Source: a virus. Taken from it: a DNA stretch of 25,974 bases. The notes below the pieces were generated by a model, which saw nothing but the letters and a program-made list of their open reading frames with translations, ran no database searches and was not told where the DNA came from. Numbering within the stretch: position 1 is the first letter of the stretch; each line of letters begins with the position of its first letter. Shown here in pieces: positions 1,422-15,870 of this stretch. The stretch covers positions 1-25,974 of IMG/VR virus record IMGVR_UViG_3300007363_000089. One strand, 5' to 3'. The position numbers and the translations under genes were made by a program.

Positions 1422-1802
1422 CTATTTAAGTATTTTCTTATGATTAAATGAGTATTTGTTTACAATTCCAATACGCATCTTTATCTCTCCACCTACACTT
1501 TGCAATCCCATGCTTCTAGCCATTGCTGGCCGCTGCTCTTCCCTGCGGTGATACCCAACACTTTTCCTTCCAGCAATATCTCTGCGGGGGCCAGCCTCTC
1601 CATTTTCCAGCGCAGTCAGTGCGCGTGACAGTTTCCGCTGCACCGATTCGGTCATTGGCAGCTCCTGCTTGTAAACGCGCCGAAAATGGGTGTAATCAAT
1701 CTCTGCAAAGTCCGTGAATTGATACATTGTAAATCCACGGTTCCTATTCAGATACATTGCGCTAATTCTGTCAATAATCTGCTGTTTTGTAAGGAATTTC
1801 AT
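1422..1802 (-). CDS. Small basic protein with HTH-like N-terminal half
   Basis: A 126-residue protein. I place the start at ATG 1802, which overlaps the terminase stop as TGATG; a TTG one codon earlier is less likely. Residues about 25-65 (FTDFAEIDYTHFRRVYKQ, then PMTESVQRKLSRAL) read like a helix-turn-helix of the kind seen in XRE-like or small-terminase-like phage proteins. The C-terminal half is basic and probably disordered. Because it is coupled to the large terminase it could be a DNA-recognition partner (small terminase) or a late regulator. The sequence alone does not decide between them, and small terminases usually precede the large subunit rather than follow it. Confidence 0.65.
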   Translation of the reverse strand: MKFLTKQQIIDRISAMYLNRNRGFTMYQFTDFAEIDYTHFRRVYKQELPMTESVQRKLSRALTALENGEAGPRRDIAGRKSVGYHRREEQRPAMARSMGLQSVGGEIKMRIGIVNKYSFNHKKILK

Positions 1803-3559
1803 CAAAAACCCAGTGCTTTTAGGTAACTTGACACCTGTTTCTGCACTTGTTGACCGCTTGCACTGTCATTTTCGTCAGGTTCAACCTGTTTTTTGTCTCT
1901 TGTAAGGCGCATTTGGATCAAACGGGGCTGAATTTGCTCTGCATAAGCAGCCGCAGCCAGTGCCGAAGCGATAACGCGATCATCTTTTGCCCTGCCAGCA
2001 GCGGCAATCGTGCCGTTATCCCTGACGATACCCTTCATTTCATCAATGCAATCAGTGGAATACACATTGAGCATCCCTCTCTCGAAGTAATCCTTGAGGT
2101 AATTTAGCATCCTCTCCTTGCTGGAGTGGGTTGTCACCCAACCAATGCTATTAGATATATTGTAGGTATCGTTTCTACGCCACAAATAGTGCTTCATGTG
2201 ACTCAAAACATCATGCAGGTGCTTCGCATCCCCGCCTGGCAGTGCTTCAGCCTGCCGTTTCAGGTTACGCATCTCGTTTAGCACGGCCTGACCTGGGCCA
2301 TTGACCTCAAGATTGAGGGTAGAGTTGACGTAGGCTCCAGCCATGTAACAGATTACCCATGCAAACTGGAAGGTATTGAGTTCGCTGGTGCAAAACTCAG
2401 CCACCTGATCCATGCCATCGGCATAGCAGCGATAGACCTGGATGCAGAATCGGTCAGCCCAATCGCTAGAACCGTAAGCAGGATCAGCGCCAATGACGTA
2501 GTAGCCCGTTGATACCGGCTCCTCCCATATCTTCAGGGTGGATAGGCGCTCATTGGACTGGATAAGGCTGGTGTCCTGAAAGTTTGCCCCCATCGAGAAG
2601 CGGTAGGGAACAAACGCCTCTCGCTTGGCAATCTTCATGGCATCAGTACAACGGGCGGTAGAGAAGAAGCTGGAGCCTGTCATTACGAAGGCATAGTCCT
2701 CTGTAGGCGGGAACTCTTGATACATCAGCCCTTCGTCCTTCAGCCCTTCATGGAGCTTCCAGCGCCACCATGCCATCTGCCTGCTATTGACCTCTACGCC
2801 ATAAATCTTGCGTATGTCTTTAGTCCATTCCTTCTCTTCGGCAGACAGCTTGCCATCCCAATACACCTTATAGATATCGGAATTCGGGTCAGCAGAATAA
2901 AACTGGTTACGCCACCATCCTACGAAGATTGCCTTCTGCGTCCTAGCCCGTTTTGCAGTGATCCACATATCATGGAACATATTGAACCCACGGGCAGTTG
3001 ACTCAAACATATAGTAGCGAAGCGGGTTTGTCTCAGCCAAGGAAGCCAGCAGTGAAGCCAATCCCTCCTCGTCACCCCATGAGCTAGTCTCTGTGCCGTG
3101 CAGGAAGGTAATGCCCTTTCCTCGCCCAAGGCCACCCTTGGCGCGAATACCGGCTACCTGATAGAACATACGGCTGCGGTTCTTCAGCACCATCTGATTA
3201 CGGTTATGGCTCATCAGAGGAATTTTGTATTCCTTCGGCAAGCCATCCATATACATCTGAAGAGTGCTTCTGAACTGTTCCCTGTTCTCTTCCGTATCTG
3301 TAGTCAGGGTGCCCTGCATACCAGGATGGATAAAGTGCCAGTAAAGGTCTAGGGCAAGGCTAATGGTCGTAATACCCAACTGCCTGCCCTTCAGCACTAC
3401 AAAGAAATGTTTATCCTCTGCCAGCCCCCGTGCCACCTCATCCATGACGTAGGTCTGTGTACCAAGCAATTCGTTGCCTAGCACAACCATCCCACGTTCC
3501 TTGGACTCAATCTTCAGGTTTTTGCAAAAGGTGTAAAACTTGTCACGATTGAAGTCCAT
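1802..3559 (-). CDS. terL: Terminase large subunit (DNA-packaging ATPase/nuclease)
   Basis: A 585-residue packaging motor protein. Residues 56-65 (LKGRQLGITT) are a Walker A motif of the RQxGxT type found in terminases. A hydrophobic strand ending in FLHGTE near residues 152-157 fits the Walker B region, and ESTARGF at 186-192 fits the coupling motif. The RNase H-like nuclease domain starts with VIGADPAYG (Asp359), has a conserved Glu in LNLEVNGPGQ (about residue 418) and ends with a third acidic site in KDDRVIASALAAA. The full domain order and length match TerL. It pumps DNA through the portal and cuts genome ends. The start overlaps the upstream stop as TGATG, and its own stop overlaps the next gene. 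Confidence 0.95.
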   Translation of the reverse strand: MDFNRDKFYTFCKNLKIESKERGMVVLGNELLGTQTYVMDEVARGLAEDKHFFVVLKGRQLGITTISLALDLYWHFIHPGMQGTLTTDTEENREQFRSTLQMYMDGLPKEYKIPLMSHNRNQMVLKNRSRMFYQVAGIRAKGGLGRGKGITFLHGTETSSWGDEEGLASLLASLAETNPLRYYMFESTARGFNMFHDMWITAKRARTQKAIFVGWWRNQFYSADPNSDIYKVYWDGKLSAEEKEWTKDIRKIYGVEVNSRQMAWWRWKLHEGLKDEGLMYQEFPPTEDYAFVMTGSSFFSTARCTDAMKIAKREAFVPYRFSMGANFQDTSLIQSNERLSTLKIWEEPVSTGYYVIGADPAYGSSDWADRFCIQVYRCYADGMDQVAEFCTSELNTFQFAWVICYMAGAYVNSTLNLEVNGPGQAVLNEMRNLKRQAEALPGGDAKHLHDVLSHMKHYLWRRNDTYNISNSIGWVTTHSSKERMLNYLKDYFERGMLNVYSTDCIDEMKGIVRDNGTIAAAGRAKDDRVIASALAAAAYAEQIQPRLIQMRLTRDKKQVEPDENDSASGQQVQKQVSSYLKALGF

Positions 3560-3714
3560 CAGCCCTCATCAGTGCCAGGCTCGTAGCGGAAGTCAATACA
3601 CCGCTTGAACGCCAGCCGATTGTGTTTGCGACACCAGAGCTTGCACCCCGCAGACTCAGGGTTCCTCAATACAGCTTCTGTGCCAATGCTCCAGTAACAG
3701 GAGGCGCAACTCAC
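3559..3714 (-). CDS. GTG-started 51-residue Cys-rich (zinc-ribbon-like) protein
   Basis: A short frame linking FkbM and terminase. It starts at GTG 3714, inside the FkbM stop (GTGA), and its TGA overlaps the terminase ATG (TGATG). The protein begins MSCASCYWSIG and later has CKLWCRKHN, so it has two CxxC-like pairs that could bind zinc. There is no ribosome binding site of its own; translation probably depends on the ribosome finishing FkbM. Without this frame there would be a 150-base hole in an otherwise tightly overlapped chain. Small CxxC proteins of this style occur beside terminases in many phages. Function unknown. Confidence 0.7.
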   Translation of the reverse strand: MSCASCYWSIGTEAVLRNPESAGCKLWCRKHNRLAFKRCIDFRYEPGTDEG

Positions 3715-4484
3715 TTGCGGACGATCTGTACCGTCTTGCCCTGCGGCCCATCCTGAGACACCAGCTTGAAACTGGCATCAGCATGGATAGCAACCACCGT
3801 ATTGCCAAAGACTTCCAGGTTATACCCAACCCCGGTCAGCAGGGACTTAATCTCTTCAGCAGTCTCCTGATACCACTCAAACTGTGTCCATGATTCATAC
3901 ACAATCGGCGGATACTTGCTCTTCTTCAGAAACTCCTCACCTCCCACCAGCACCGGCAACTCAGAACCCTCTACATCCATCTTAATCAACCGCACCGGCT
4001 TATCAAACGCCAAATCATCCAGCTTGATGCACTCCACCGCTTCCTTCACCCCACCAGCCTTGGCCTCCTGACTATTTTCCCGCACCTTCGGACTCATACT
4101 CCAAGCCCCAATATTCGTATTGGTGTTGTAGTCAGGCATATCAATATCCACACAACCCTTAACACTACTCACCGCCTCGTTGTAAGCATGGACATTATGG
4201 CAATGATTCAATGCCACGTTCCCGCACAACTGCTGATACACCACCCGCTGCGGCTCCCAAGCATGTATCTCATACTGCGGATTAGCCTTCGCCATCGGAA
4301 CCGTCACCGTTCCAATATTGGCACCAATATCCAACACCACCCCACTCTCATACCCACCAGCAATCATCGCGCACAGATTCACCACATCCCACTCATAATG
4401 CCCATACAACGCCAGATTCGCACTAATCAAATCCTGACCAGGCCGAACCATCATCCTACCGTGTCTTGTCTCTAAAACGTTCAT
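3711..4484 (-). CDS. FkbM-family SAM-dependent methyltransferase
   Basis: A 257-residue methyltransferase. I choose ATG 4484 (MNVLETRHGRMM) because GGGAGG lies 5 bases upstream; an earlier in-frame ATG at 4502 lacks this. VVLDIGANIGTVTVPMA is the glycine-rich SAM-binding motif I, followed by an acidic residue in HAWEPQ. IKMDVEGSELPVLVGGEEFL is the signature of the FkbM family, which methylates hydroxyls of sugars or polyketides. Such genes are frequent in aquatic podovirus-like phages near packaging genes. Targets in phages are unknown: surface glycans, virion glycans or host small molecules are possible. A glycosyltransferase gene at 14975-15727 could be a partner, but lies in another transcription unit. 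Confidence 0.88.
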   Translation of the reverse strand: MNVLETRHGRMMVRPGQDLISANLALYGHYEWDVVNLCAMIAGGYESGVVLDIGANIGTVTVPMAKANPQYEIHAWEPQRVVYQQLCGNVALNHCHNVHAYNEAVSSVKGCVDIDMPDYNTNTNIGAWSMSPKVRENSQEAKAGGVKEAVECIKLDDLAFDKPVRLIKMDVEGSELPVLVGGEEFLKKSKYPPIVYESWTQFEWYQETAEEIKSLLTGVGYNLEVFGNTVVAIHADASFKLVSQDGPQGKTVQIVRK

Positions 4485-4674
4485 ATTCCCTCCCGTCCTC
4501 ACTCATCAATAAATACTTCAACTGTTCACGATACATCCCATACCAAGGGTCAGCAGGATCAGCATCCTCCAACATCCTGATTGTTTCAAACACCACCCAT
4601 CTACCCCTGGCTATCGCAAACTCAGAATACCGCTTTCCCCACTTCTTCGGGTCAACCCAATCCAACTCACTCAA
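4456..4674 (-). CDS. Hypothetical small phage protein
   Basis: A 72-residue charged protein beginning MSELDWVDPKKWGKRYSEFA, rich in Trp, Arg and acidic residues, with no membrane segment or known motif. It overlaps the next gene (FkbM, start 4484) by 29 bases and the previous gene by 8 bases, so it belongs to the leftward operon. The overlap and the continuous codon pattern support coding. No function recognised. Confidence 0.65.
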   Translation of the reverse strand: MSELDWVDPKKWGKRYSEFAIARGRWVVFETIRMLEDADPADPWYGMYREQLKYLLMSEDGREYERFRDKTR

Positions 4675-4879
4675 CCCGCCATATCCTTACACCATACCCC
4701 TCCTTCTTCGCTACAAACTTCATACCGAGCTTTGCACCATTACGTTTATTGTAATTACACATGGCCCCGATCTTCATATCACTCACCATAAAACTATCAC
4801 CTACATTCATATCACCATACGGGAAGTTATGCTTCCTACGCGCCTTCGGAATCTCTACTCCACTCTCTACGTTATACAT
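4667..4879 (-). CDS. Hypothetical protein, first gene of leftward operon
   Basis: A 70-residue basic protein starting MYNVESGVEIPKARRKH. The pattern of a short PFG/PYGDMNVGDSF strand, then a basic helix, then GVRIWRVE at the end is seen in many small phage proteins whose first part reads like 'YPFxxMxVGDSFFV'. They may be small DNA-binding or regulatory proteins, but no role is established that I can cite. GGAG lies 8 bases upstream of the ATG (AGGAGACGCAGATG). As the first gene after the divergent intergenic region it heads the FkbM-terminase-portal chain. Confidence 0.72.
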   Translation of the reverse strand: MYNVESGVEIPKARRKHNFPYGDMNVGDSFMVSDMKIGAMCNYNKRNGAKLGMKFVAKKEGYGVRIWRVE

Positions 4880-4930
4880 CTGCGTCTCCTATTTAGTTAT
4901 CCAGCAGATTTAGTGTAACACAAAAAGGCA

Positions 4931-4961
4931 AATTCCTTTGGGGCGGGGAGGGGAGGGAATT
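4931..4961 (+). promoter_or_regulatory. G-quadruplex motif framed by an inverted repeat
   Basis: Four G runs are separated by single bases (GGGGCGGGGAGGGGAGGG, 4940-4957). They are framed by AATTCC (4931-4936) and GGAATT (4956-4961), which can pair and place most of the G runs in the loop. Single-base loops are known to give very stable parallel quadruplexes. A second G-rich block with runs GGGG, GGG and GGGG follows at about 4978-4995. The G-rich strand is the + strand, so in a leftward transcript the RNA would be C-rich. Whether it acts on transcription, replication or packaging is not shown. Confidence 0.6.
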
Positions 4962-5273
4962 CCAGATTTTTTATGTGGCGGGGAGCGGGATGGGGCACGC
5001 ACGCTCGAAGGCTCAAACCCATTCGCATCGCCACACTCTGCGCCGTCCAGTCCGGCCTTCCCGATGCAATCCATCTATCCGGTGCAAGCTCGCATCCTAG
5101 GGCATCCTAGCCAATCGTCGGGCCGGATAACAGATGGCATGGCCAATGCCCCATGCGATTGTAGGGACTATTTAACATAATATAACCCTACGGGCAGTGT
5201 GGCAGTATCCCTCAATCCGCGAGCGCTCCCTCATATAGATATAGTCCTACATACCTACAGGCATAAATATTAA

Positions 5274-5320
5274 GGGCCTTATATATTATATAGGGGCCTT
5301 ATATCATATATGGCGCTTAT
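5274..5320. repeat. AT-rich direct repeats with 20-bp spacing
   Basis: GGCCTTATAT occurs at 5275 and again at 5295, exactly 20 bp apart, each followed by a similar run of A/T. A degenerate third unit, GGCGCTTAT, ends at 5320 with its TTAT 18 bp further on. A spacing near two helical turns puts the units on one face of the DNA, as in operators or replication iterons. It lies upstream of the promoter at 5379-5407, which fits an operator or upstream element. No protein that binds it is identified. Confidence 0.5.
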
Positions 5321-5378
5321 CAATAAATTCTACTTATGCTTAGATTAAAACAATCAATGAAAATTGTGTGAACTATGC

Positions 5379-5407
5379 TTGCGTTCATACGTTCATATAT
5401 GTATATT
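5379..5407 (+). promoter_or_regulatory. Predicted sigma70-type promoter for the rightward early block
   Basis: TTGCGT (5379-5384) and TATATT (5402-5407) are separated by exactly 17 bp and lie 41 bp before the ATG of the ArdC-like gene. The match to the bacterial consensus (TTGACA, TATAAT) is good. CGTTCATA is repeated in tandem within the spacer (about 5382-5397), which could be an operator. It would drive the ArdC-like, clamp-like and ArdA-like genes. Confidence 0.55.
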
Positions 5408-5447
5408 GCAAGTGTAGTATCTTTCAATCCTAATGAAAGGGCATTAA

Positions 5448-6317
5448 ATGGACATTGCACAATTAATCACTGATCGCATCATTGGTGAGCTAGAAAAGGG
5501 CGCGACACCTTGGGTTAAGCCGTGGCGCACTCTTAAACAAGCGCCAGGTGCGGGGATGCCGTATAACCCTGCATCTAAGACTGTTTACAGGGGTATCAAT
5601 CATACTTGGTTGAGTATGCAGCCGTATGCAATGCCCTGGTACGTGACATTTAAACAAGCTCAACAGCTAGGCGGTACGGTAAAAGCAGGGGAAAAAGGCA
5701 CGCCCGTCGTATTCTGGAAAATAGGTAAACGGGAAACCGTTGACGCTACTGGTGACAAAACCACTAGCGCCTATGCCTTGGTAAAAAATTATTGGGTATT
5801 CAACGTAGAGCAGTGCGAAGGTATTGAGATACCGGCCTTGCCTGAATTGCCTAAGCCAGAATTCGATCAAAGCCCTGCAGTTATGGGTGTTGTCGATAAA
5901 TTGGCGTTATCCGGCGGATTAACACATGCCGGCGATTCAGCCTACTACCGTCCCTCGTCGGATGCTATCGTTATGCCACCAATGGCAGCATTCACCAGTG
6001 CAGCTAACTATCACGCCACACTTTTACATGAATCTGTACACGCTACAGGGCATAAATCCAGGCTTGATCGGCTAACTCCGGCACGGTTCGGGAGTGAGAA
6101 TTACGCTTACGAGGAATTAGTCGCTGAATTAGGCGCAGCAATGCTTTGTTGCAAGCTCGGTGTCGATGGCGATCTACGCCATGCCGACTATATCGGATCA
6201 TGGCTTAAAGCTCTCAAGAATGATAAAAAGTTTATCCTGAGCGCATCGGCAAAAGCTCAAGCGGCAATGGACTGGTTGACAGATACCGATGAACAAGTGG
6301 ATAGTATGGCAGCCTGA
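5448..6317 (+). CDS. ardC: ArdC-type antirestriction protein (ssDNA-binding domain plus zincin)
   Basis: A 289-residue two-domain protein. Residues 1-125 match the ArdC N-terminal domain: GATPWVKPW at 18-26, YRGIN at 47-51, GEKGTPVVFW at 81-90 and an NYWVFN strand near 114-119. Residues 145-280 are a zinc-metallopeptidase-like domain with HESVH (194-198) followed by GH, and the acidic third-ligand region YEELVAEL (221-228). ArdC from IncW plasmids binds single-stranded DNA and shields entering DNA from restriction; primases and conjugation proteins share the domain. Placing it first behind a strong promoter fits protection soon after entry. AAAGG lies 7 bases before the ATG. Both the HExxH and the extra Glu are intact, so peptidase activity is possible but not shown. 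Confidence 0.9.
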   Translation: MDIAQLITDRIIGELEKGATPWVKPWRTLKQAPGAGMPYNPASKTVYRGINHTWLSMQPYAMPWYVTFKQAQQLGGTVKAGEKGTPVVFWKIGKRETVDATGDKTTSAYALVKNYWVFNVEQCEGIEIPALPELPKPEFDQSPAVMGVVDKLALSGGLTHAGDSAYYRPSSDAIVMPPMAAFTSAANYHATLLHESVHATGHKSRLDRLTPARFGSENYAYEELVAELGAAMLCCKLGVDGDLRHADYIGSWLKALKNDKKFILSASAKAQAAMDWLTDTDEQVDSMAA

Positions 6318-6323
6318 TTGTAG

Positions 6324-6369
6324 CGTATAGGGTATCAATCGGTACCCTATGCGATACCATTCCGGTATC
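6324..6369 (+). promoter_or_regulatory. Tandem hairpins between ArdC-like and clamp-like genes
   Basis: The first hairpin pairs CGTATAGGGT (6324-6333) with ACCCTATGCG (6344-6353) over a 10-base loop. The second pairs GATACC (6353-6358) with GGTATC (6364-6369) over 5 bases. They sit between the ArdC-like stop and the ribosome binding site of the next gene. There is no T-run, so a simple intrinsic terminator is unlikely; attenuation, RNA processing or mRNA stabilisation is possible. Confidence 0.5.
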
Positions 6370-6391
6370 AATCCTAACAAAAGAGGCAATC

Positions 6392-7027
6392 ATGGAAATC
6401 AATCTTAAGACTGTAAACGCGCTGGCGAAATACATTGCACCAAAAAGTGATACCCGCTTTTATCTGAACGGCGTACTGATTGAGATCACGGAAAACGGCA
6501 GATTCTACGCTGCAACAGACGGGCATAAGCTCGTCGTAATCCGCGAGGCAAGACAGGAAACAGACACGAACGGCCAATGGATTCTGCCGCGTGACGTTAT
6601 CATGGGTATCAAGCTGCAAAAGTCAGGGCGTACTGTTCTGGAAACCGCAGATCTGGAAACCGATGGGGCAAAGGCTAAACTAGACTATTGCGGTACCGGT
6701 ACCGTATTTTCCTTTGTTGATGGAAAATTCCCCGATTGGCGTAGGGTTGTCCCGTCGAAAACGTCGGGTGAAGTAGCGCAATTTGACCCAGACCTGCTAG
6801 TAGCAGTCCGTGACTGTGCGGCCGCTACTGTTGGCGTAGGCAAATATACCGGCCTTTCTATCTTGCATAATGGCGGTAACGCTTCCCTGTATCAGTGCAA
6901 TGACCATAATTTCATTGCAGTCATCATGCCCATGCGGATAAACGCGGCCGACGTTTATAAGCCGGTACCGGACGATCTGCACCTATTCTGGGGGCTGTCT
7001 AAGCCCCTGCAATCTGTAGCGGCCTAG
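6392..7027 (+). CDS. Shortened DnaN (beta sliding clamp)-like protein, domains II-III
   Basis: A 211-residue protein that matches landmarks of the bacterial beta clamp from its second domain onward. LNGVLIE (25-31) corresponds to LNGMLFE at the start of domain II in E. coli DnaN. ATDGHKL (41-47) corresponds to ATDGHRL. DGKFPDWRRVVP (110-121) corresponds to DGRFPDYRRVLP. The C-terminal AVIMPMRI (176-183) corresponds to VVMPMRL at the end of the clamp. Domain I is absent and domain III is compressed to about 60 residues. DnaN has three domains in about 366 residues and forms a dimeric ring; a protein with two domains would need a trimer, as PCNA does. It could be a phage clamp, or a decoy or modifier of the host clamp. 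About 28 residues after MPMRI have no clamp counterpart. AAGAGG precedes the ATG. Confidence 0.82.
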   Translation: MEINLKTVNALAKYIAPKSDTRFYLNGVLIEITENGRFYAATDGHKLVVIREARQETDTNGQWILPRDVIMGIKLQKSGRTVLETADLETDGAKAKLDYCGTGTVFSFVDGKFPDWRRVVPSKTSGEVAQFDPDLLVAVRDCAAATVGVGKYTGLSILHNGGNASLYQCNDHNFIAVIMPMRINAADVYKPVPDDLHLFWGLSKPLQSVAA

Positions 7028-7038
7028 TGTCCGGCCTG

Positions 7039-7077
7039 GTGCGCCCTACGGGGTGCACTTGGACGCGCATTAGCGTC
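7039..7077 (+). promoter_or_regulatory. Tandem hairpins between clamp-like and ArdA-like genes
   Basis: GTGCGCCC (7039-7046) pairs with GGGGTGCAC (7050-7058) as an 8-bp stem with one G-T pair and a loop of about 4 bases. GACGC (7062-7066) pairs with GCGTC (7073-7077). The pair sits in the 72-base gap before the next gene, the same layout as the gap at 6324-6369. No T-run follows. The repeated layout suggests a shared RNA-level role. Confidence 0.5.
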
Positions 7078-7099
7078 ATAACCTAACTATGAGGCAATC

Positions 7100-7552
7100 A
7101 TGCAATTAAACATAAATGCAGAATGTATCGACGTACGAGATGTTATTGAGCGTGTGGAGAGTCTCGAGGATGTATTGCTTGCCGCATTTAATGAGCAGCA
7201 AGTGATTGAATGTGATGACACTGAAACAGATGACCCGATGGATAGTGCTTTTCGGGAATGGTGCAAAGTTACAGTGCATGAAGATGCAATTGAATATCTG
7301 TCTTTATGCGAACTGCTTGATGGTCTTTGCGGTAACGGTGGTGATGAACTATGGCGCGGTGAATGGTTCCCTATTACTTTGATATCAGAGGATTACTTCG
7401 TTGATTACGTTAAGGAATTGCTTATAGATTGCGGAGATTTGCCGAAAGACATACCGCATTACATTGAAATAGACTGGCAGAAAACGGCAGAAAATATCGC
7501 GGTTGATTATTCTGTTATTGATTTCAATGAAAAAACATTCTTTTATAGGTAA
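7100..7552 (+). CDS. Acidic protein, possible ArdA-like antirestriction protein
   Basis: A 150-residue, strongly acidic protein. The C-terminal third has YIEIDWQKTAENIAVDYSVI (about 121-140), then FFYR at the end. This resembles the closing segment of ArdA-type antirestriction proteins and of a group of small phage proteins ending IDWExTAxxxxxDYxxVxxxGxxYxxR. ArdA proteins are DNA mimics that bind type I restriction enzymes; the acidic composition (for example CDDTETDDP) fits this. The match is by pattern only, so the call is tentative. Context helps: it lies two genes after an ArdC-like gene. GAGG lies before the ATG. Confidence 0.5.
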   Translation: MQLNINAECIDVRDVIERVESLEDVLLAAFNEQQVIECDDTETDDPMDSAFREWCKVTVHEDAIEYLSLCELLDGLCGNGGDELWRGEWFPITLISEDYFVDYVKELLIDCGDLPKDIPHYIEIDWQKTAENIAVDYSVIDFNEKTFFYR

Positions 7553-7556
7553 TTCA

Positions 7557-7637
7557 ATGCTTAACAATATCCTGCAATACCTGGCCGGTATGGTTTGCGC
7601 CCTGCTGATCTTGTGGGCTTTCTTTTCTAATATCTGA
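7557..7637 (+). CDS. 26-residue membrane microprotein
   Basis: A very short frame, MLNNILQYLAGMVCALLILW then AFFSNI, which is almost entirely one transmembrane helix. It starts 4 bases after the stop of the acidic protein and its TGA is directly followed by the ATG of the next gene. The spacing fits the tight packing of this phage. No good ribosome binding site is seen, so translation would rely on coupling. Function unknown; membrane microproteins in phages often modulate host envelope enzymes or superinfection. Confidence 0.5.
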   Translation: MLNNILQYLAGMVCALLILWAFFSNI

Positions 7638-7823
7638 ATGGGTGAACCAATGGAACAGCGGATAGACATCCTACGCGATAAGACTAGCGCCCTGTGCGAC
7701 AAAGTGGACGAGCTACTGAACCAGGTCGAACGGCTAATGCCGGCGGATTATCCGGCCCTGCTGAACCTGATCAACGATGTTGACGATTGCATTAAGAATG
7801 CAAGGGAGGCGCTATGGAAATAG
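7638..7823 (+). CDS. Small helical protein
   Basis: A 61-residue protein with heptad-like hydrophobic spacing, MEQRIDILRDKTSALCDKVD and LLNQVERL, suggesting a short coiled coil. A second possible start at Met5 (7650) cannot be excluded. It follows the microprotein without a gap and overlaps the next gene by 10 bases. Function unknown. Confidence 0.55.
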   Translation: MGEPMEQRIDILRDKTSALCDKVDELLNQVERLMPADYPALLNLINDVDDCIKNAREALWK

Positions 7824-7972
7824 GTAAATATTACAACCATGACCCTAATCACTACCGCTTCAAGCGGTGCATGGATGATTGCGAGGGATTAAGGCCAGAG
7901 CGCCGTAGTCGATTGTACGACGCGCTACTGGTTATCTTGGCGATCATCTGTATGTTAGTGATAATGTTGTAA
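7814..7972 (+). CDS. 52-residue protein with C-terminal membrane anchor
   Basis: The frame starts at ATG 7814 with GGGAGG 6 bases upstream, inside the end of the previous gene. The first 36 residues are polar and charged (MEIGKYYNHDPNHYRFKRC then a basic stretch RPERRSRLYD). The last 16 are a membrane helix, ALLVILAIICMLVIML. This is a tail-anchored layout with the charged part probably in the cytoplasm. No known family recognised. Confidence 0.6.
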   Translation: MEIGKYYNHDPNHYRFKRCMDDCEGLRPERRSRLYDALLVILAIICMLVIML

Positions 7973-8029
7973 GTAAATGCTAACATAGTTTCAGATACAG
8001 AAAAAAATCGGTTTGGGCTGTCCGTACGT

Positions 8030-8049
8030 ACGCGCCTATACGCGCCTAT
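8030..8049. repeat. Tandem 10-bp repeat
   Basis: ACGCGCCTAT occurs twice head to tail (8030-8039 and 8040-8049), preceded by the palindrome CGTACGTACG (8023-8032). It lies in the 122-base gap before the zinc-ribbon gene and could be an operator. No more can be said. Confidence 0.4.
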
Positions 8050-8094
8050 GTTCGAGGCCCTGCCGATGCAACAGCGGCCAATTAAAGGAATCCT

Positions 8095-8403
8095 ATGCTT
8101 ATTAAATGCCCTGCTTGCTATCAGAAGATCGGCCCCTATGACCGTAGCTGCCCCTGTGGCTGGTCGATCAGCGAATCAATGGCCCCTCCCTCCCATAATT
8201 GCGGCTGGCCCGATTGTACGGGCGCTGCTGCCACTAGCGTTATGGCGGCAGGTAAACGGGTGAACCTGTGCATGACGCACTATGCAGAATACCATCGCCG
8301 CCAGGCTAACGCGGGTGCGAAGGCTAAAGGACTGAATACCCCTGAGGCTTGTAGGGAATGGCTGAAGCAGAACAAGCTGCGCCCCATGAAGTTTTTGACT
8401 TAA
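8095..8403 (+). CDS. Zinc-ribbon protein
   Basis: A 102-residue protein opening with CPAC (5-8) and CPCGW (19-23), a compact zinc ribbon, followed by a second cluster with HNCGWPDC (33-40) and CMTH (about 59-62). The C-terminal part is basic and helical (YHRRQANAGAKAKGL) and ends in a short helix with EACREWLKQ. Two zinc sites plus a basic tail suggest nucleic-acid or protein binding. AAGGAATCCT precedes the ATG. It closes the counter-defence-like block and is followed by the structured gap. Function unknown. Confidence 0.75.
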   Translation: MLIKCPACYQKIGPYDRSCPCGWSISESMAPPSHNCGWPDCTGAAATSVMAAGKRVNLCMTHYAEYHRRQANAGAKAKGLNTPEACREWLKQNKLRPMKFLT

Positions 8404-8789
8404 TTATTTTTCGGTGGCAGAATTCCATTGCCTGTGAAAAAGACAGGTCGCTTCAGCGGTGGAGCGTGGAACACAGAGAAACCATACGCATTGGGTTTCG
8501 GTCTTGATGTGCGACATTCTGTGTTCTGCGCCCATCATAACCGCGACCTGAAACCCAAGCCGTATGGTTTTTTCTTTTTCCTAGCTAGTAGCAAACACGG
8601 GGGTGAGGCCCGCCCCTCGCGTCGGTAGAGGCGACCAAGCGAATAGACGCTGCATTAAACGGCATGGTGTCCGTTGCTGAGAATATCTCGGCGTTGCAAC
8701 CGGAAACGAGAGCCTCCCTCAATTTTTGAGGAACCCCACATATATACGTGGGGCCGTTGACTATGTGTGAATGTAGGAGATTAGGAAAA
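8404..8789. other. Structured gene-free region, candidate RNA locus
   Basis: This 386-base gap has no credible protein gene. It contains a long hairpin ending in a T-run (8478-8580) and then a series of shorter hairpins: AGCG/CGCT (8638-8651), AACGG/CCGTT (8658-8675), CCTCA/TGAGG (about 8716-8731) and CCCCAC/GTGGGG (about 8734-8753). The density of inverted repeats is far above that of neighbouring sequence. The last palindrome sits just before TTGACT and the DUF5710-like gene, so it may be an operator. The 5' part (8430-8580) is listed separately as an RNA candidate. Confidence 0.55.
8430..8580 (+). ncRNA. Candidate structured RNA or unusual terminator with pseudoknot potential
   Basis: The outer stem pairs AAACCATACG (8479-8488) with CGTATGGTTT (8561-8570). 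It continues after a two-base mismatch with TTGGGTTTC (8491-8499) against GAAACCCAA and a GGTC/GACC step. A second stem, GATG.GCG against CGC.CATC, closes the top. Within the terminal loop TCTGTGTTC (8518-8526) is perfectly complementary to GAACACAGA (8469-8477) just upstream of the outer stem, which allows a pseudoknot or an alternative fold. A T-rich run (8567-8579) follows, as in an intrinsic terminator. The mismatches within otherwise long pairing look like an RNA rather than a DNA palindrome. No known RNA family recognised. Confidence 0.5.
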
Positions 8790-8990
8790 ATGATTAGGGT
8801 GTTTGTAAATATAGACTTCAAACACAGGGAATCAGCAAAGAGAGCCGGAGCAAAGTGGGATTGGGTTAATAAATCCTGGTATTTTGAAAACTCAATCCCG
8901 CCTAGCTTCAGGACAGGTAAGCAGGCTAAGTCATTCGAGCAGCGGTTAGCAGAGGCCAAGCAGAGATATAAAGAAAAAAATAAAGTTTAA
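8790..8990 (+). CDS. DUF5710-like small protein
   Basis: I take ATG 8790 as start, with GGAG at 8776-8779; a GTG at 8748 lies inside a strong palindrome and is unlikely. The 66-residue protein MIRVFVNIDFKHRESAKRAG then AKWDWVNKSWYFE matches the DUF5710 pattern, in which a short beta-hairpin domain reads xxLxVPFxEKxxAKxLGAKWDxxxKxWY. The domain is found fused to helicases, primases and toxin-like proteins and alone in phages; its role is unknown. The C-terminus is a charged helix. It starts the second rightward block. Confidence 0.72.
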   Translation: MIRVFVNIDFKHRESAKRAGAKWDWVNKSWYFENSIPPSFRTGKQAKSFEQRLAEAKQRYKEKNKV

Positions 8991-8998
8991 AAAAATAT

Positions 8999-9235
8999 AT
9001 GAATGTAAAAATAGGAACTCAAGAAGCTGTTTACCAAGCGATCAAGTCAGGTAAACGAAGTGCAGATGACATAGCCGAAGCAGTGGGTATTGATAAGCGC
9101 CAGGTGTACGGTTGTTTGCGTAGGCTAATCAGCAAAGGATTAGTGGAGAGGTATGAGAAACTTTCTAAAAATACTTTGTTTGAATACAGGCAGAAAAGTA
9201 ATAAACGGTGTTTGTTGGCGGAACACTGGCGATGA
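8999..9235 (+). CDS. Winged helix-turn-helix DNA-binding protein
   Basis: A 78-residue protein. Residues 8-55 have the layout of a winged HTH: helix (TQEAVYQAIKSG), then SADDIAEAVGIDKRQVYGCL as the helix-turn-helix, then RRLISKGLVERYEK leading to the wing and FEYR strand. It resembles MarR/ArsR-like minimal repressors. It follows the DUF5710-like gene by 8 bases and probably shares its transcript. As the only clear stand-alone winged-helix protein in the first part of the early block it may regulate the nearby palindromes, which is inference. Confidence 0.72.
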   Translation: MNVKIGTQEAVYQAIKSGKRSADDIAEAVGIDKRQVYGCLRRLISKGLVERYEKLSKNTLFEYRQKSNKRCLLAEHWR

Positions 9236-9286
9236 TGTTGAGAGATAGATTTTTTTAAACCCGCAGCATCCTAACTAGGGGGAATC

Positions 9287-9532
9287 ATGCAGAAGCATGT
9301 GGTCGTGACGAAACAGAGGATACGGAACCATTTAATAACTGGTTTCTTAGCCGGAACTATTACCGCTATGTTTGCCTGGGGATTGTGGTCGTTAAACGCG
9401 ATTGCAGATCAGGACAAGGTAGCAGCCAGTGAAGCAAGCATTGTGTCTAGTTGCCGACTGCCAGACGTAAATGGGGCGATGACCGTATTTGTCATGGAAG
9501 ATGGCAAGATGAAGTGCTGGAGGTGGAAATGA
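9287..9532 (+). CDS. Single-pass membrane protein
   Basis: An 81-residue protein with a basic N-terminus (MQKHVVVTKQRIRNHL) and a hydrophobic helix at about 17-40 (ITGFLAGTITAMFAWGLWSL), then a soluble part with two cysteines and MTVFVMEDGKMKCWRWK at the end. Orientation by charge is N-in, so the C-terminal part would be in the periplasm, where the two cysteines could pair. GGGGGA precedes the ATG. First of a chain of seven genes overlapping by ATGA. Function unknown. Confidence 0.65.
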   Translation: MQKHVVVTKQRIRNHLITGFLAGTITAMFAWGLWSLNAIADQDKVAASEASIVSSCRLPDVNGAMTVFVMEDGKMKCWRWK

Positions 9533-9693
9533 GCGAGCCGCTTGATTACAAACTATTGCGGACACCAAAATATATTGCTGCATGGTGTTTCAATGGTGAT
9601 TGGTCATTTCAGGTAAACACTCAATCAATACCCTGCTGGTTTTACAGAACAATGCAGCGATTGATTCTTGGTATTCATTGGAAAAAGCTATGA
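9529..9693 (+). CDS. Small hypothetical protein
   Basis: A 54-residue protein, MSEPLDYKLLRTPKYIAAWC at the start and FYRTMQRLILGIHWKKL at the end. ATG 9529 overlaps the preceding stop by ATGA, and the next gene overlaps in the same way. The aromatic-rich C-terminal amphipathic helix may lie on a membrane surface. Short proteins with a similar end are frequent in phage early regions; function unknown. Confidence 0.6.
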   Translation: MSEPLDYKLLRTPKYIAAWCFNGDWSFQVNTQSIPCWFYRTMQRLILGIHWKKL

Positions 9694-10178
9694 ACGAGCC
9701 GACGATTGATGAACAGATAGTGGCGCTTTCAGAGTGCACTAACGAATACACGCCAACGAACCGCGCCATCCTCGCCAGCCTAGAACGCCTCAAGCGCCTC
9801 GACAGCCAGCCGGTGCCGGTGGAGCCAAGCAACGTGGCTATGACGCTGTTTGGAAATCGTAATCTTACGCACGTAGCTGACTACATCGACACCCTGCAAT
9901 CCGAACTCAAGCGGGTGACGGAGGAACGGGATAACGCAACCACACTCTTAAAACAATGGAAAGAGGAAGGAAATCATTTATTTTGCCAGACCTGCGATTC
10001 CTGTGGCATTGATGATTGCTGCCCACCGAACCAATGTTGGCAGACTCGCGCCGAAGCCGCCGAATCCCTCAACAAGCGTCTGGTGGACGCAATACGAAAT
10101 CTGCGGGATGTTAAAGGCAGACATAACACCGAAATTGCAACGACACGGTTATTTGAACTGCTCAAGGAGGTTAAATGA
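9690..10178 (+). CDS. Coiled-coil protein with Cys cluster
   Basis: A 162-residue protein; ATG 9690 is chosen for its ATGA overlap with the previous stop. Residues about 62-95 (YIDTLQSELKRVTEERDNAT) form a coiled coil. Residues 99-116 hold six cysteines (CQTCDSCGIDDCCPPNQC), likely a zinc-binding loop, followed by another helix. This layout of coiled coil with a Cys insert is common in phage accessory proteins of unknown role. Confidence 0.6.
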   Translation: MNEPTIDEQIVALSECTNEYTPTNRAILASLERLKRLDSQPVPVEPSNVAMTLFGNRNLTHVADYIDTLQSELKRVTEERDNATTLLKQWKEEGNHLFCQTCDSCGIDDCCPPNQCWQTRAEAAESLNKRLVDAIRNLRDVKGRHNTEIATTRLFELLKEVK

Positions 10179-10435
10179 CCTTCCCCGATAAGCTGACAGA
10201 GTTACTTGACGCAATCAAAAACGAAGTCAATCCATTCAAGAGATTCTCTTACGTTCAGCAAATGGATGCCCTGCTTGTCAACCACGCCGAAGCTATCAGG
10301 GACTTGGTGGTGGCGGCGGAGGAAATACACGCAGAACGTGACGAGCAAGGGAGGACACTTTGCTGCGAAACCCGAGGCGGACACCACGCAAAATGCGAAC
10401 TAAATAATGCCCTCGCCAAATTGGAGCAACCATGA
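10175..10435 (+). CDS. Small helical hypothetical protein
   Basis: An 86-residue, mostly helical protein starting MTFPDKLTELLDAIKNEVN, with CCETRGGHHAKCELNN near the end that could bind a metal. It overlaps both neighbours by ATGA. AAGGAGG lies 4-10 bases before the ATG, one of the strongest ribosome binding sites in the chain. Function unknown. Confidence 0.6.
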   Translation: MTFPDKLTELLDAIKNEVNPFKRFSYVQQMDALLVNHAEAIRDLVVAAEEIHAERDEQGRTLCCETRGGHHAKCELNNALAKLEQP

Positions 10436-10740
10436 CCAAAGCCGATGAACTGACTGAGCGCATTAAAAACGCCCTTGTTTACGGAACATCACACCCAGAG
10501 GCTTACATGACAAAGATTGATGAACTGTGGGAGAAGTATTCCGAAACGATAGGCTTTGGCATTGGAACGCAAGTATGCGTTGACCGTGCCAAATTCCTAG
10601 CAGCCCTGACCGAATACGGAGAACACCTCAAGTCCGAGGCGGTTAAGGTGTGCATAAACCTTCCGAATGGCGTAAGCAACATTAACCTAGCACCATATAA
10701 AGACTGCGCCGCTGCTATTGAACGGATGGAGATTAAATGA
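10432..10740 (+). CDS. Small helical hypothetical protein
   Basis: A 102-residue protein, MTKADELTERIKNALVYGT at the start and CAAAIERMEIK at the end. Its start resembles that of the preceding protein (MTxxDELTExIKN), so the two may descend from a duplication. It overlaps both neighbours by ATGA. No motif recognised. Confidence 0.6.
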   Translation: MTKADELTERIKNALVYGTSHPEAYMTKIDELWEKYSETIGFGIGTQVCVDRAKFLAALTEYGEHLKSEAVKVCINLPNGVSNINLAPYKDCAAAIERMEIK

Positions 10741-10952
10741 CAGACCTTTTAATGCGTAATAATTACGACAATCCTGGCCATGCCTCAGCTATCAATCAAC
10801 CAATGTCTTACGAAGCGATCTGTGTTCGCTGTGCAGGAATGTTGGGCGGCAAGATTACCGATCAACCCGTACACTGGAGGGTCAAGAAGTGCGACTGCTG
10901 CAACATCAAAGAACAGGTGACACACCCTAAAAACTTTATCTGGAGAACTTGA
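10737..10952 (+). CDS. Small zinc-ribbon-like protein
   Basis: A 71-residue protein with two Cys pairs, CVRC (about 30-33) and CDCC (about 53-56), separated by a short basic segment. The pairs could form one zinc site. The ATG overlaps the previous stop by ATGA, and the stop overlaps the next start as TGATG. Function unknown. Confidence 0.58.
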   Translation: MTDLLMRNNYDNPGHASAINQPMSYEAICVRCAGMLGGKITDQPVHWRVKKCDCCNIKEQVTHPKNFIWRT

Positions 10953-11167
10953 TGCAAACCGTTGACATTCTAATGGTTGTTTGTGTTATCGTATTTATTG
11001 TGGTTGCTGTATTCCTAACTATGAAGCGAGTTTCCGACAATGACCGTGTTACCCGAATCATGGCCGTTTCCAAGCCTGGAAAGCCTGCAAAGAGCAAGCG
11101 CAGCTATACCAAGCGCAGTAACTACTGGAACAGAGAAAGACAAAAAAAGGCTGGAAAGAAAGCCTAA
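10952..11167 (+). CDS. N-terminally anchored, basic membrane protein
   Basis: I take ATG 10952 (TGATG overlap, GGAGA upstream) rather than the TTG one codon earlier. The 71-residue protein has a membrane helix at about 5-25 (DILMVVCVIVFIVVAVFLTM) followed by a very basic tail rich in Lys, Arg and Ser (SKRSYTKRSNYWNRERQKK). The positive-inside rule puts the tail in the cytoplasm, where it could touch nucleic acid. Last gene of the coupled chain. Confidence 0.65.
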   Translation: MQTVDILMVVCVIVFIVVAVFLTMKRVSDNDRVTRIMAVSKPGKPAKSKRSYTKRSNYWNRERQKKAGKKA

Positions 11168-11206
11168 AACAGCAATCAATCTTAACGATATCGAGAGGGC
11201 ACCCCT

Positions 11207-12100
11207 ATGAGCGACTTTACCCCTGAAGTCAGGAACAAGGCACTTTGGTCTGGTGATGCAAGACGTTTCGTAGAAGGCAGAGGTGGCGAGGTTTACGCTG
11301 AGAAGATCGGCCTGAAGGAAATGGATGATCTAAGTGACGTTGAGGCTGTGCAGATGGGCTTGGTGATGCAGGAGCCAATCATGCGCGAGTATGCCAGGCG
11401 CAATCGCATTGAGTTCAAGGATGCAGACTATGCGCTCTACCACCCTCGAGAGTCATTCCTTGCAAGCCACTTCGATTACATCAGCGCCGATGGCAAGACG
11501 CTGTATGAGGTCAAGAACCTGGGTGTTCACCAGCGCAAGAAGTATGGTGACGATGGTACTGACCAGATCGACATTGGCTACCGTGTACAGTGCTTGCATG
11601 AGGCTACCGTGCATCAGATTGAGTCTGTAGTGCTGGTGGTCTGCTTTGGTGGGCAGGAGATCGTAGGCTATCCGCAGACGTTCAGCCCAGACATGATGGG
11701 CATCCATATTAAGGAAATGGCTGAGTTCTGGGGGCGCATCCAGGCACGTAGCTTTGACCCCGATACGATGGGTGATGCTGCCAAGCTGGTGTATCGGCAG
11801 GACAATGGCACCAACCTGATTGCTACTCAGGAGCTTGAGCATGACTGTATGCGTCTGGCTGCAATCAAGGCGCAAATCAGCGCACTGGAGAAGGATGAAG
11901 CGACCCTGCAAAAGCGTATTCAGGGATACATGATGGAATCAGGCCAGTTGGTTAGCGTTGACGGAACCGTGCTGGCAACATGGAAAACATCGAAACCAAG
12001 TAAACGGTTTTCACAAGAGTTGTTTAAGAACGCAATGCCTGATATATTTAATAACTTCGTAGTAGAACAGCAAGGTAGTCGTAGGTTTTTAGTTAAGTAG
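11207..12100 (+). CDS. YqaJ-family (lambda-exonuclease-like) recombination exonuclease
   Basis: A 297-residue nuclease of the PD-(D/E)XK fold. The core has QEPIMREYARR (55-65) with the first acidic residue, ASHFDYI (86-92) with Asp90, and LYEVKNLG (99-106) with the Glu101-x-Lys103 pair, followed by GYRVQCLHE (124-132) with the conserved Gln. This is the YqaJ/lambda exonuclease layout. Such enzymes resect double-stranded DNA and pass the strand to an annealing protein. The C-terminal 90 residues add a coiled coil (LAAIKAQISALEKDEATLQ) and end in a short basic tail, longer than a minimal YqaJ domain. GAGAGGG lies upstream. The next gene is a plausible annealing partner. Confidence 0.88.
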   Translation: MSDFTPEVRNKALWSGDARRFVEGRGGEVYAEKIGLKEMDDLSDVEAVQMGLVMQEPIMREYARRNRIEFKDADYALYHPRESFLASHFDYISADGKTLYEVKNLGVHQRKKYGDDGTDQIDIGYRVQCLHEATVHQIESVVLVVCFGGQEIVGYPQTFSPDMMGIHIKEMAEFWGRIQARSFDPDTMGDAAKLVYRQDNGTNLIATQELEHDCMRLAAIKAQISALEKDEATLQKRIQGYMMESGQLVSVDGTVLATWKTSKPSKRFSQELFKNAMPDIFNNFVVEQQGSRRFLVK

Positions 12101-12131
12101 TTATCCGATTCCTAATTAAAGAGAGGCTATC

Positions 12132-12956
12132 ATGGAAAATGTAGTATCCATTGCGCCACAGGGCGCAGTCCTAGACCCCAAGATTCAAGATTCAATCGTC
12201 CTTCGTGGCGATCTATCCGGCCTGTCAGAAGGCCAGAAGCGCGATTACTACCTGTATCGCTGCAAGCAGGTAGGTCTTGATCCGGCTGCCAAGCCGTTCG
12301 ACCTGCTGACCCTGAACGGGAAGCAGATTCTGTACGCTAATGCAGGGGCTACACAACAGCTTTGCAGTATCCATAAGCTGTCCACACAGATTACCCACAG
12401 GGAGCGCGTAGATGGCATCTACGTTGTGTCCGTGCGCTGCACTGGTGCCGACGGTAGGGTGAGCGAGAACCAGGGCGCTGTGGACGTTTCTAGCCTGTCT
12501 GGTGAGCGTTTGGCTAATGCCTACCTCAAGGCTACTACCAAGGCTATCCGCCGTTCCGTGCTTGCACATTGTGGACTAGGCATGATGGACGAAATGGAAG
12601 TCGAGACTATTCCAGAGGCAAGGCGTACGCCGATGGTTGCCATTGAGGAAACCAAGCCTACCCAAGCCCCTGCTGGCATTGTGTTTATGGTGCCAGGCGC
12701 AAAGGATGCCTATGCCAAGTATCCGAATAACGAGGAATGGGTTGCTGGCTATCTGGACATGGCTGGCAAGATTGCCGGTAGCAAGAAGTTTTCTGCTGCC
12801 GAGAAAGAAGCAAAGCTCAATGCCTTGGCGGAAGTCAATAGTTTCATCATGGAAACAATCTCTGCCGAAAGCAAGGTGCTGTTTGAGGTAATGGAGCGCG
12901 GTATTGCCAAGGTGCTTGCCGACATTAAGGGAGGAAACGATGAGCCAAAACAATGA
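12132..12956 (+). CDS. Probable phage recombination/annealing protein
   Basis: A 274-residue protein. Residues 20-160 form a conserved-looking domain: LRGDLSGLSEGQKRDYYLYR, then GLDPAAKPFDLLTLNGKQ, YANAGATQQL (68-77), a YVVSV strand and AYLKATTKAIRRSVLAHCG with GLGMMDEMEVETIP at the end. Proteins with this order are widespread in phages, nearly always beside YqaJ-type nucleases, and are probably single-strand annealing proteins comparable to RecT or Rad52-type. The basic helix KATTKAIRR fits DNA binding. The C-terminal 100 residues are helical and may hold the contact to the exonuclease. The function is inferred from neighbourhood and pattern. GAGAGG precedes the ATG. Confidence 0.65.
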   Translation: MENVVSIAPQGAVLDPKIQDSIVLRGDLSGLSEGQKRDYYLYRCKQVGLDPAAKPFDLLTLNGKQILYANAGATQQLCSIHKLSTQITHRERVDGIYVVSVRCTGADGRVSENQGAVDVSSLSGERLANAYLKATTKAIRRSVLAHCGLGMMDEMEVETIPEARRTPMVAIEETKPTQAPAGIVFMVPGAKDAYAKYPNNEEWVAGYLDMAGKIAGSKKFSAAEKEAKLNALAEVNSFIMETISAESKVLFEVMERGIAKVLADIKGGNDEPKQ

Positions 12957-13143
12957 AATCCTCTCTTACATGGCGAAGGGCAATGCAATTACGCCGATGG
13001 ATGCACTGAAGAAGTTTGGCTGCTTCAGGCTGGCATCCAGGATCAATGACTTACGCAATGATGGTCATAAGATTCACAAGGTGATGAAAGAGCGTAACGG
13101 CAAGCGGTTTGCATCCTACTATCTCATCGAGAGGGCAAAATGA
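12940..13143 (+). CDS. Winged-helix protein
   Basis: A 67-residue protein starting at ATG 12940 with GGGAGG 5 bases upstream. NEILSYMAKGNAITPMDALK then FGCFRLASRINDLRNDGHKI is the typical short winged helix-turn-helix found next to phage recombination genes, where it is often annotated only as a helix-turn-helix domain. It overlaps the end of the annealing-type gene by 17 bases and the next gene by ATGA. It probably binds DNA as regulator or accessory factor; target unknown. Confidence 0.75.
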   Translation: MSQNNEILSYMAKGNAITPMDALKKFGCFRLASRINDLRNDGHKIHKVMKERNGKRFASYYLIERAK

Positions 13144-13352
13144 AACTCAAGACGGTTTATCTTAACTACAACAAATACAAAAAAGAATATACGGGAACAA
13201 TAAGTTTTGAAGATGATGGCGATGAGGTCTGCTTTACCTTAACTGAGGCAGAGGCGTCCGACCTGTCTTATACGTTCCGTGATCGCTTAATCGTTTTCAA
13301 GGATCGTTTCAAAACTTTTGCAGATAAAATCGAACAATCAACCAAGGAATAA
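13140..13352 (+). CDS. Small hypothetical protein
   Basis: A 70-residue protein with beta-strand-rich first half (MKLKTVYLNYNKYKKEYTGT, ISFEDDGDEVCFTLTE) and a helical second half. Starts in an ATGA overlap with the winged-helix gene. No family recognised; the recombination-module context suggests an accessory role. Confidence 0.55.
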   Translation: MKLKTVYLNYNKYKKEYTGTISFEDDGDEVCFTLTEAEASDLSYTFRDRLIVFKDRFKTFADKIEQSTKE

Positions 13353-13353
13353 C

Positions 13354-13623
13354 ATGGAACGCGAACGCAAGGAAGGAACAGGAGTACTGCTAACCAATCA
13401 GCGGAAGAAGGGTGCTGGCCCTGATTGGAAGGGAGAAATGCGCGTAGAACGTGCCTACGCTGCCGGAGAGATCATCAAGCTGGCAGGATGGACTAAGGAG
13501 TCAGCCGTAGGTGTTTTGATTAGCCTGAAGGAAGATAACTGGAGGCCAGCGCAGGAGAACAATGGTAACGTCAATCCTATCCCTGCTAAACGCATTGACG
13601 ATCAGGATATCCCTTTTAATTAG
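13354..13623 (+). CDS. Small phage protein, possible OB-like fold
   Basis: An 89-residue protein; ATG 13354 with AAGGAA upstream is preferred over an earlier TTG-like start. The pattern TGVLLTNQRKKGAGPDWKGE then GEIIKLAGWTKE and VGVLISLKEDNW is that of a frequent small phage family in which a K-x-x-x-x-P-D-W/F-x-G motif is followed by a W-x-K strand and a S-L-K strand. These are found near recombination and replication genes and may be single-strand DNA-binding, but this is not established. Gene ends with PFN in the way single-strand-binding proteins end in DIPF (it reads DIPFN), a feature worth noting. Confidence 0.6.
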   Translation: MERERKEGTGVLLTNQRKKGAGPDWKGEMRVERAYAAGEIIKLAGWTKESAVGVLISLKEDNWRPAQENNGNVNPIPAKRIDDQDIPFN

Positions 13624-13631
13624 AACTGGTC

Positions 13632-13637
13632 TATAAT
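13632..13637 (+). promoter_or_regulatory. Perfect -10 box before first HNH gene
   Basis: TATAAT lies 30 bases before the ATG of the HNH gene. No good -35 box stands at 16-18 bp, so it may depend on an activator, act weakly, or be chance. It would give the HNH gene and the following nuclease, HNH and glycosyltransferase genes a transcript of their own. Confidence 0.4.
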
Positions 13638-13666
13638 GGTCGCGTTACCCTGCACAGGAGCGAGGC

Positions 13667-14463: not shown

Positions 14464-14472
14464 GACGTTGAC

Positions 14473-14497
14473 GGGGCGCACGTTTGCGACACGCCCC
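14473..14497 (+). terminator. Hairpin after resolvase-like gene
   Basis: GGGGCG (14473-14478) pairs with CGCCCC (14492-14497) over a 13-base loop that can fold further (CGCA/TGCG). There is no T-run, so it may be a weak or Rho-dependent stop, or an RNA processing site. It separates the resolvase-like gene from the second HNH gene. Confidence 0.45.
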
Positions 14498-14517
14498 ACC
14501 TACAACTAGAGGACACT

Positions 14518-15727: not shown

Positions 15728-15869
15728 CGGTGCTGATTGGCAGCAGCAGGCACAGCTTGAGGAGGAGCGCCTGCAAGACCTTATGGAGATTCTGGAGCGC
15801 GTAAGGACAGGCACTACTACCGAAGAGGATGCAAGTATTCTGGCGGCAGAGTTAAGGATCGTGGCATAA
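15720..15869 (+). CDS. Small acidic helical protein, last gene of rightward unit
   Basis: A 49-residue protein, MSDGADWQQQAQLEEERLQD at the start and EEDASILAAELRIVA at the end, probably a helical hairpin. ATG 15720 overlaps the glycosyltransferase end by 8 bases and GAGG lies in front. The terminator hairpin begins 6 bases after its stop. Function unknown. Confidence 0.6.
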   Translation: MSDGADWQQQAQLEEERLQDLMEILERVRTGTTTEEDASILAAELRIVA

Positions 15870-15870
15870 A

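Follow-up and report, generated by a model that had tools for sequence, protein, structure and literature searches.

The window, as we call the whole 25,974-nucleotide stretch of viral DNA analysed here, carries two divergent gene blocks. The leftward block, running from position 4879 downward, comprises a 70-aa gene (4667–4879, minus strand), a 72-aa ORF, an FkbM methyltransferase gene (3711–4502), and the gene for the terminase large subunit (1802–3559, minus strand). The product of the first leftward gene belongs to a conserved family with the pattern YPYxxMxVGDSFxV...GVRVWR, which matches Pfam DUF7303 below the cut-off only. This family has 36 non-redundant members, and six positions (P, G, S, R, W, and R) are invariant among the 25 that were aligned. 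The rightward block (5448–15883) starts with an ArdC-type antirestriction gene (5448–6317, plus strand), the first recognised rightward gene, and also contains exonuclease, resolvase, endonuclease VII, and HNH genes. Judging from gene content, the leftward block is probably late and the rightward block early. The G-rich feature under study lies between these divergent blocks, as the initial annotation had stated. Among the early ORFs that were scanned, none was recognisable as a polymerase, helicase, primase, or initiator gene. One early-block protein gives a Pfam match to the DNA polymerase III beta-clamp domain, and its best PHROG match is labelled resolvase. In addition, an early 101-aa protein (13318–13623) matches a PHROG single-strand DNA-binding family (4.8e-05) and is kept in the phage records MW202753 and MW202825 at 36–38% identity; its C-terminal end, DDQDIPFN, presumably resembles the acidic tip of bacterial SSB.

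The region between the two blocks (approximately 4880–5447) contains no convincing coding ORF, and the window as a whole contains no tRNA and no Rfam match. The 100 bp with the lowest GC content of the window (26% GC) are found here, at 5263–5362. They hold a 20-bp direct repeat (5271–5310), the adjacent units of which, TAAGGGCCTTATATATTATA and TAGGGGCCTTATATCATATA, are located to the left of a rightward, early promoter-like pair, TTGCGT and TATATT separated by 17 nt (5379–5407, plus strand). This pair was recognised by eye with 8/12 matches and is below the scoring threshold; accordingly, promoter scoring of the window yields no early promoter above threshold. On the other side, a predicted leftward, late extended -10 box, TG-T-TACACT (4912–4920, minus strand), is the best -10 of the window and has no -35 match. 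Its TACACT (4912–4917) is located about 33 nt from the first leftward ATG.

Next to this -10 box, GGGGCGGGGAGGGGAGGG (4940–4957, plus strand) reads GGGG-C-GGGG-A-GGGG-A-GGG, that is, four G runs separated by 1-base loops, and a further G-rich stretch, GTGGCGGGGAGCGGGATGGGG, follows at 4975–4995. When both strands of the window are scanned, GGGGCGGGGAGGGGAGGG is the sole G3+N1-7 motif. Such a motif is expected 0.20 times per window in first-order Markov sequences of the same make-up, and a motif in which all loops are 1-base occurs in 0 of 500 such sequences, confirming that the motif is strong and rare by chance. The motif was also thought to be framed by an AATTCC/GGAATT inverted repeat that could extrude the G block. 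The two arms are indeed present (4931–4936 and 4956–4961), but by eye the frame is missing from the near relatives L001 and L002. Moreover, the right arm overlaps the fourth G run at the run's final two Gs, which makes the arm stem and the quadruplex mutually exclusive. Extrusion was rejected on both grounds.

Relatives were collected by protein and by DNA pattern. The protein-fetched relatives are the best 80 loci by ArdC and the best 80 by terminase, of more (best-80 loci hereafter). The pattern-fetched relatives are 69 stretches from one search and at least 120 from another, 80 of the latter being among the matches listed and some being unrelated contigs. A nucleotide profile was built from 105-base seeds and searched with nhmmer. 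Elements with fewer than 80 nt on the left or fewer than 70 nt on the right were dropped from the sets of 84 and 62 elements. The sets of 84 elements, 58 regions, 66 loci, and 51 loci are partly made up of loci retrieved by the letters of the element itself, so the G block is favoured in these sets; the conservation, early-promoter, and -10 tests were repeated on the best-80 protein-fetched loci alone, with the same outcome. The 58 regions were reduced from 133, and 28 of the 58, including the window, lack a scored early promoter. Random controls for the motif, promoter, and -10 tests were first-order Markov sequences; one of the analyses that covered the distance between the G block and the -10 box used plain shuffles.

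The comparison reveals a conserved, letter-specific element, GAAAA..TTTTYYTTGGGGCGGGGA..G....RGGGCRCGCAA. In the 62 protein-fetched elements (best-80 loci), conservation covers the A tracts (-26 to -22), the T tracts (-16 to -13), TTGGGGCGGGGA, the G at +4, and RGGGCRCGCAA (+9 to +19). Four positions are the same in 62/62, namely the Ts at -14 and -9 and the Gs at -5 and +10, and the C that separates the first two G runs is kept in 51/62 (both best-80 loci). In the same 62 elements, the columns of the third G run are under almost no constraint (+2, 0.38 bits; +3, 0.33 bits; best-80 loci). The G-rich patch forms the centre of a DNA element, roughly 50–100 bases long, that is common to a large group of uncultivated phages.

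The strict quadruplex motif is not what these phages conserve. Its conservation in relatives, to which the initial annotation had tied the quadruplex, is seen in 11 of the 62 non-redundant protein-fetched elements (best-80 loci) and in 18 of the 84 elements of the larger set (a set of at least that size, including loci fetched with the element's own letters). A quadruplex with loops of at most 3 bases is found in 6/62 (best-80 loci) and 7/84 elements, respectively. We therefore rejected the strict G-quadruplex as a conserved feature: a minority of relatives have it, and particular letters are kept instead. Since letters that a quadruplex does not need are kept and the third run is free, the simplest reading is that the patch is probably a G-rich, sequence-specific protein site. 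G4Hunter scores are at least 1.2 in 62/62 and at least 1.5 in 53/62 protein-fetched elements (best-80 loci); with scores high throughout, a two-quartet or imperfect structure could still form. The best explanation, we propose, is that the strict quadruplex of the window arose incidentally, through drift and duplication in a site rich in G. The earlier placement of the G block in a control region is thus upheld insofar as the block belongs to a selected, letter-specific element, whereas neither the strict quadruplex nor the AATTCC/GGAATT frame is supported as its functional part. This serves as a warning that a single genome can show a textbook quadruplex as the by-product of a protein site that most relatives retain without the strict motif.

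The nucleotide profile detects the element in 60 of the 65 loci that have both flanking genes, terminase and ArdC (best-80 loci; some contigs are counted twice). It is not found at E 1e-3 in the other five (L069, L070, L079, L132, and L134), two of which, L132 and L134, give weak matches of 18.1 and 17.0 bits. The element is also present in 7 of the 9 terminase-fetched loci (best-80) that have no ArdC match and at least 4 kb of upstream sequence. It is common to relatives down to about 71–72% terminase identity, and recurs upstream of ArdC at a variable distance. The element is usually single-copy: 26 larger records give one match in 18, two in 1, and none in 7 (G001, which is cut inside the element, G009, G012, G019, G023, G024, and G026), and a reversed-pattern control gives 0/26. 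The 37,502-base contig G029, from which L268 and L287 derive, carries the element at either end; the two copies, about 37.2 kb apart, differ slightly, which shows that the element itself varies. An isolated quadruplex motif thus becomes a defined, family-wide control element with exact letters, in a phage group that is represented here by metagenome-derived records only.

The phage collection contains no DNA-level match to positions 4300–7100 of the window. Searching by protein yielded two circular metagenome phage records, MW202753 and MW202825, each with a diverged element by eye; nhmmer matches the element in MW202753 at E 1e-6, and that in MW202825 falls below threshold. A single GGGCGGG match in Hydrogenobaculum phage 1 is unlike the element and was discarded. 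Two contigs of the phage group are found in bacterial bins, L228 in a MAG labelled Balneolaceae and L229 in a MAG labelled Alphaproteobacteria, possibly through misbinning. At the level of titles and the starts of abstracts, no published description of the element was found in the literature.

The element consists of two parts. The left half, made up of the A/T tracts and the G block, is present as one half-copy in most of the protein-fetched loci and as tandem copies in 10 of 52 (best-80), with a spacing mostly near 30–35 nt. The window has two tandem left-half copies and, in accordance, a 15-nt direct repeat (4939–4953 and 4974–4988). Copy 1 (4927–4949, plus strand) consists of GGCAAATTCCTTT followed by GGGGCGGGGA, with one mismatch to TTTYYTTGGGGCGGGG at 4933–4948; its G block together with two further G runs makes up the strict quadruplex motif. 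Copy 2 (4956–4984, plus strand) is degenerate, ending in TTTTTTATGTGGCGGGGA, with two mismatches to TTTYYTTGGGGCGGGG at 4968–4983. The nhmmer match of the window spans 4954–5039 (61.7 bits). The conserved right half (4987–5001, plus strand), delimited by the column frequencies at +4 and +9 to +18, comprises the G at +4 and RGGGCRCGCA, which is GGGGCACGCA at 4992–5001. It is followed within the profile match by a less conserved tail, CTCGAAGGCTCAAACCCATTCG (5004–5025, plus strand), in which the CC at +36 and +37 carries 1.47 and 1.19 bits (84-element set, pattern-fetched loci included).

Promoter signals flank the element on both sides. On the early side, scoring finds a sigma-70-like pair in 28 of the 53 protein-fetched regions (best-80), compared with a mean of 12.5 and a maximum of 19 in Markov controls. 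Twenty-six of these 28 promoters are 332–399 nt from the G block, even where ArdC is much farther away (best-80 loci). The position of the pair in the window, 396 nt to the right of the last conserved G, agrees with that in the relatives. On the late side, a leftward -10 box scoring at least as high as that of the window, often with TG, lies beyond the leftmost half-element in 34 of the 52 protein-fetched loci (best-80; 200 Markov sets, mean 18.9, maximum 27) and in 41 of the 66 loci overall (pattern-fetched included; mean 22.4, maximum 32). Where half-elements are tandem, the -10 box stands to the left of the leftmost copy. A -35 box with at least 4/6 matches accompanies 1 of the 41 boxes, no better than the control (13%), and 1 of the 34 among the protein-fetched loci (best-80). 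The lack of a -10 box of that score in 18 of the 52 protein-fetched loci (best-80) and the wide variation of the distance between the G block and the -10 box count against the late-promoter reading.

A natural rearrangement bears on the left half. In L059, a leftward Mom-like gene (3096–3536; PHROG 1384 at 5.4e-39, Pfam Mom at 1.3e-06) sits between a half-element and the full element (region 3080–3600), so that a copy stands at the head of each leftward unit. This one case points to the left half as a candidate promoter module. No half-element was found at other late genes in the near-complete contigs searched, which counts against the switch proposed below. Two half-element copies also surround an insert in L283 and L288 (243-base gap) and in L222 (206-base gap); none of these stretches contains a convincing gene.

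From the element as observed, its mostly single occurrence, its location, and the statistical promoter signals on both sides, we tentatively propose, with a confidence just short of even, that the G block forms the centre of a sequence-specific protein-binding element. The element would belong to an early/late switch whose late promoter depends on an activator. A putative phage-encoded early protein would bind the GAAAA/TTTT stretch and GGGGCGGGG. The bound protein would recruit the host's RNA polymerase to the neighbouring leftward promoter, where a -10 box is present without a -35 box, and the late genes (the 70-aa gene, the terminase gene, and the structural genes) would be turned on once early expression had taken place. 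The right half (RGGGCRCGCAA...) would probably serve as a second contact, and may play a part in repressing the early side or in replication. The leftward promoter does not account for the right half being well conserved, and this counts against the switch.

Several other functions could be assigned to the site. A structured RNA or a small gene encoded at the element would explain that a non-coding stretch is conserved, and the consensus folds of 28 relatives do fall below column shuffles (z -8.5 and -4.4). However, the consensus energies, at -1.6 and -4.9 kcal/mol for some 400 nt, are tiny, Rfam matches nothing in the window, and the site of the window offers no convincing ORF. We consider this reading exceedingly improbable and set the structured RNA aside. 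A real G-quadruplex acting as a structural switch, as first proposed for this site, could draw on the strict motif in the window and in the 11/62 protein-fetched elements that share it, and on the G4Hunter scores of 1.2 or above in 62/62 (both best-80 loci). But the strict motif is missing from 51/62 (best-80 loci), the third-run columns vary freely whereas the letters of the loops and flanks are kept, and L001 and L002 do without the AATTCC/GGAATT frame; this makes a quadruplex switch very unlikely. A replication origin deserves more weight, unlikely as it also is. Here the G block and the right half would bind an initiator, the AT-rich stretch would open, and forks would move outward through both operons. 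The non-coding region is of near-fixed length with usually one site per genome, it contains the window's lowest-GC 100 bp (5263–5362) as the adjacent AT-rich stretch, and the tandem half-elements are iteron-like. The gene content is ambivalent in this respect: with no replication genes recognised among the early ORFs scanned, replication may rely on a cis site and host enzymes, but neither was an initiator gene recognised among the ORFs scanned. AT-richness is also expected of promoters, and DnaA-box-like sites are not enriched, with 7 found in the 58 regions against 10.6 expected. A DnaA-dependent origin was therefore rejected.

Packaging initiation, with the terminase recognising and cutting a pac or cos site near the G block, is somewhat less probable than an origin. 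A usually single site upstream of the terminase operon is what such a reading predicts, and the element accompanies terminase where ArdC is absent. Its distances covary a little more closely with terminase than with ArdC (partial rank correlation 0.39 versus 0.13; 51 loci, pattern-fetched included), but the bootstrap interval of the difference spans zero (-0.03 to 0.47). Contigs L118 and G001 end directly after GGGGCGGGGA(A), and contig ends are over-represented within 250 nt of the element (11/65 on the left and 12/57 on the right), contigs serving here as a proxy for virion ends. However, the remaining ends in its vicinity are scattered over different bases, and the ends at the same distance in L084, L122, and L155 differ in sequence. 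In 14 contigs of 35–42 kb, the element is 139 to 35,798 bases from the left end. End overlaps are found in 4 of 17 such contigs (G021, 127 bases; G019, 123; G006, 45; G010, 24), but the ends of G021, G006, and G010 are far from the element, and G019 has no element match. The 37.5-kb contig with two site variants at its ends indicates that strain mixture can explain the breaks. A cos site with fixed ends is disfavoured, as contig ends are mostly scattered, but is kept as a rival. Finally, one element of about 100 bp may couple three events, if a phage protein on GAAAA/TTTT/GGGGCGGGG/RGGGCRCGCAA turns on late transcription and the complex so formed also initiates replication or passes the DNA to the terminase. 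One site would then time late expression and packaging, a combination that we regard as a little more doubtful again than packaging by itself.

These readings can be set against known systems. The motif of the window fits the canonical G-quadruplex (G3+N1-7) exactly; its relatives differ, with the strict motif in 11/62 (best-80 loci), and on present evidence a canonical quadruplex role is not supported, G-richness notwithstanding. Iteron-type origins have repeated short units beside an AT-rich stretch in a non-coding region. In contrast, the present loci have one half-copy in most cases and at least two in 10/52 (best-80), with no initiator recognised and no excess of DnaA boxes. The cosL of phage P2 with its next bases (GGCGAGGCGGGGAAAGCAC TGCGCGC) has GGCGGGGA and then GCGCGC in common with the element, and terminase genes are nearby here; but the likeness is short, the spacing differs, and contig ends do not indicate unique genome ends at the element.

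For the early/late switch that we favour, phage phi29 offers a comparison. According to the portion of the phi29 paper available (PMC3100819), p4 binds A-tract inverted repeats between the early promoters A2c/A2b and the late promoter A3, and A3 has a poor -35. As in that account, one intergenic region here appears to contain both early and late promoters (by sequence signals alone), the candidate late promoter has a -10 and a poor -35 (41/66 and 34/52 loci), and a putative A-tract-containing binding region stands beside it. The phi29 sites, as given there, are CTTTTT-N15-AAAATG, whereas here GAAAA is followed by TTTT about 5–6 nt away, beside the G block. The consensus of the 62 elements does not match the p4-type CTTTTT-N15-AAAATG, differing in order and spacing, and the same portion of the paper describes no GGGGCGGGG core for phi29 (PMC3100819). 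Since site order and spacing differ, the likeness to phi29 would be one of working rather than of membership.
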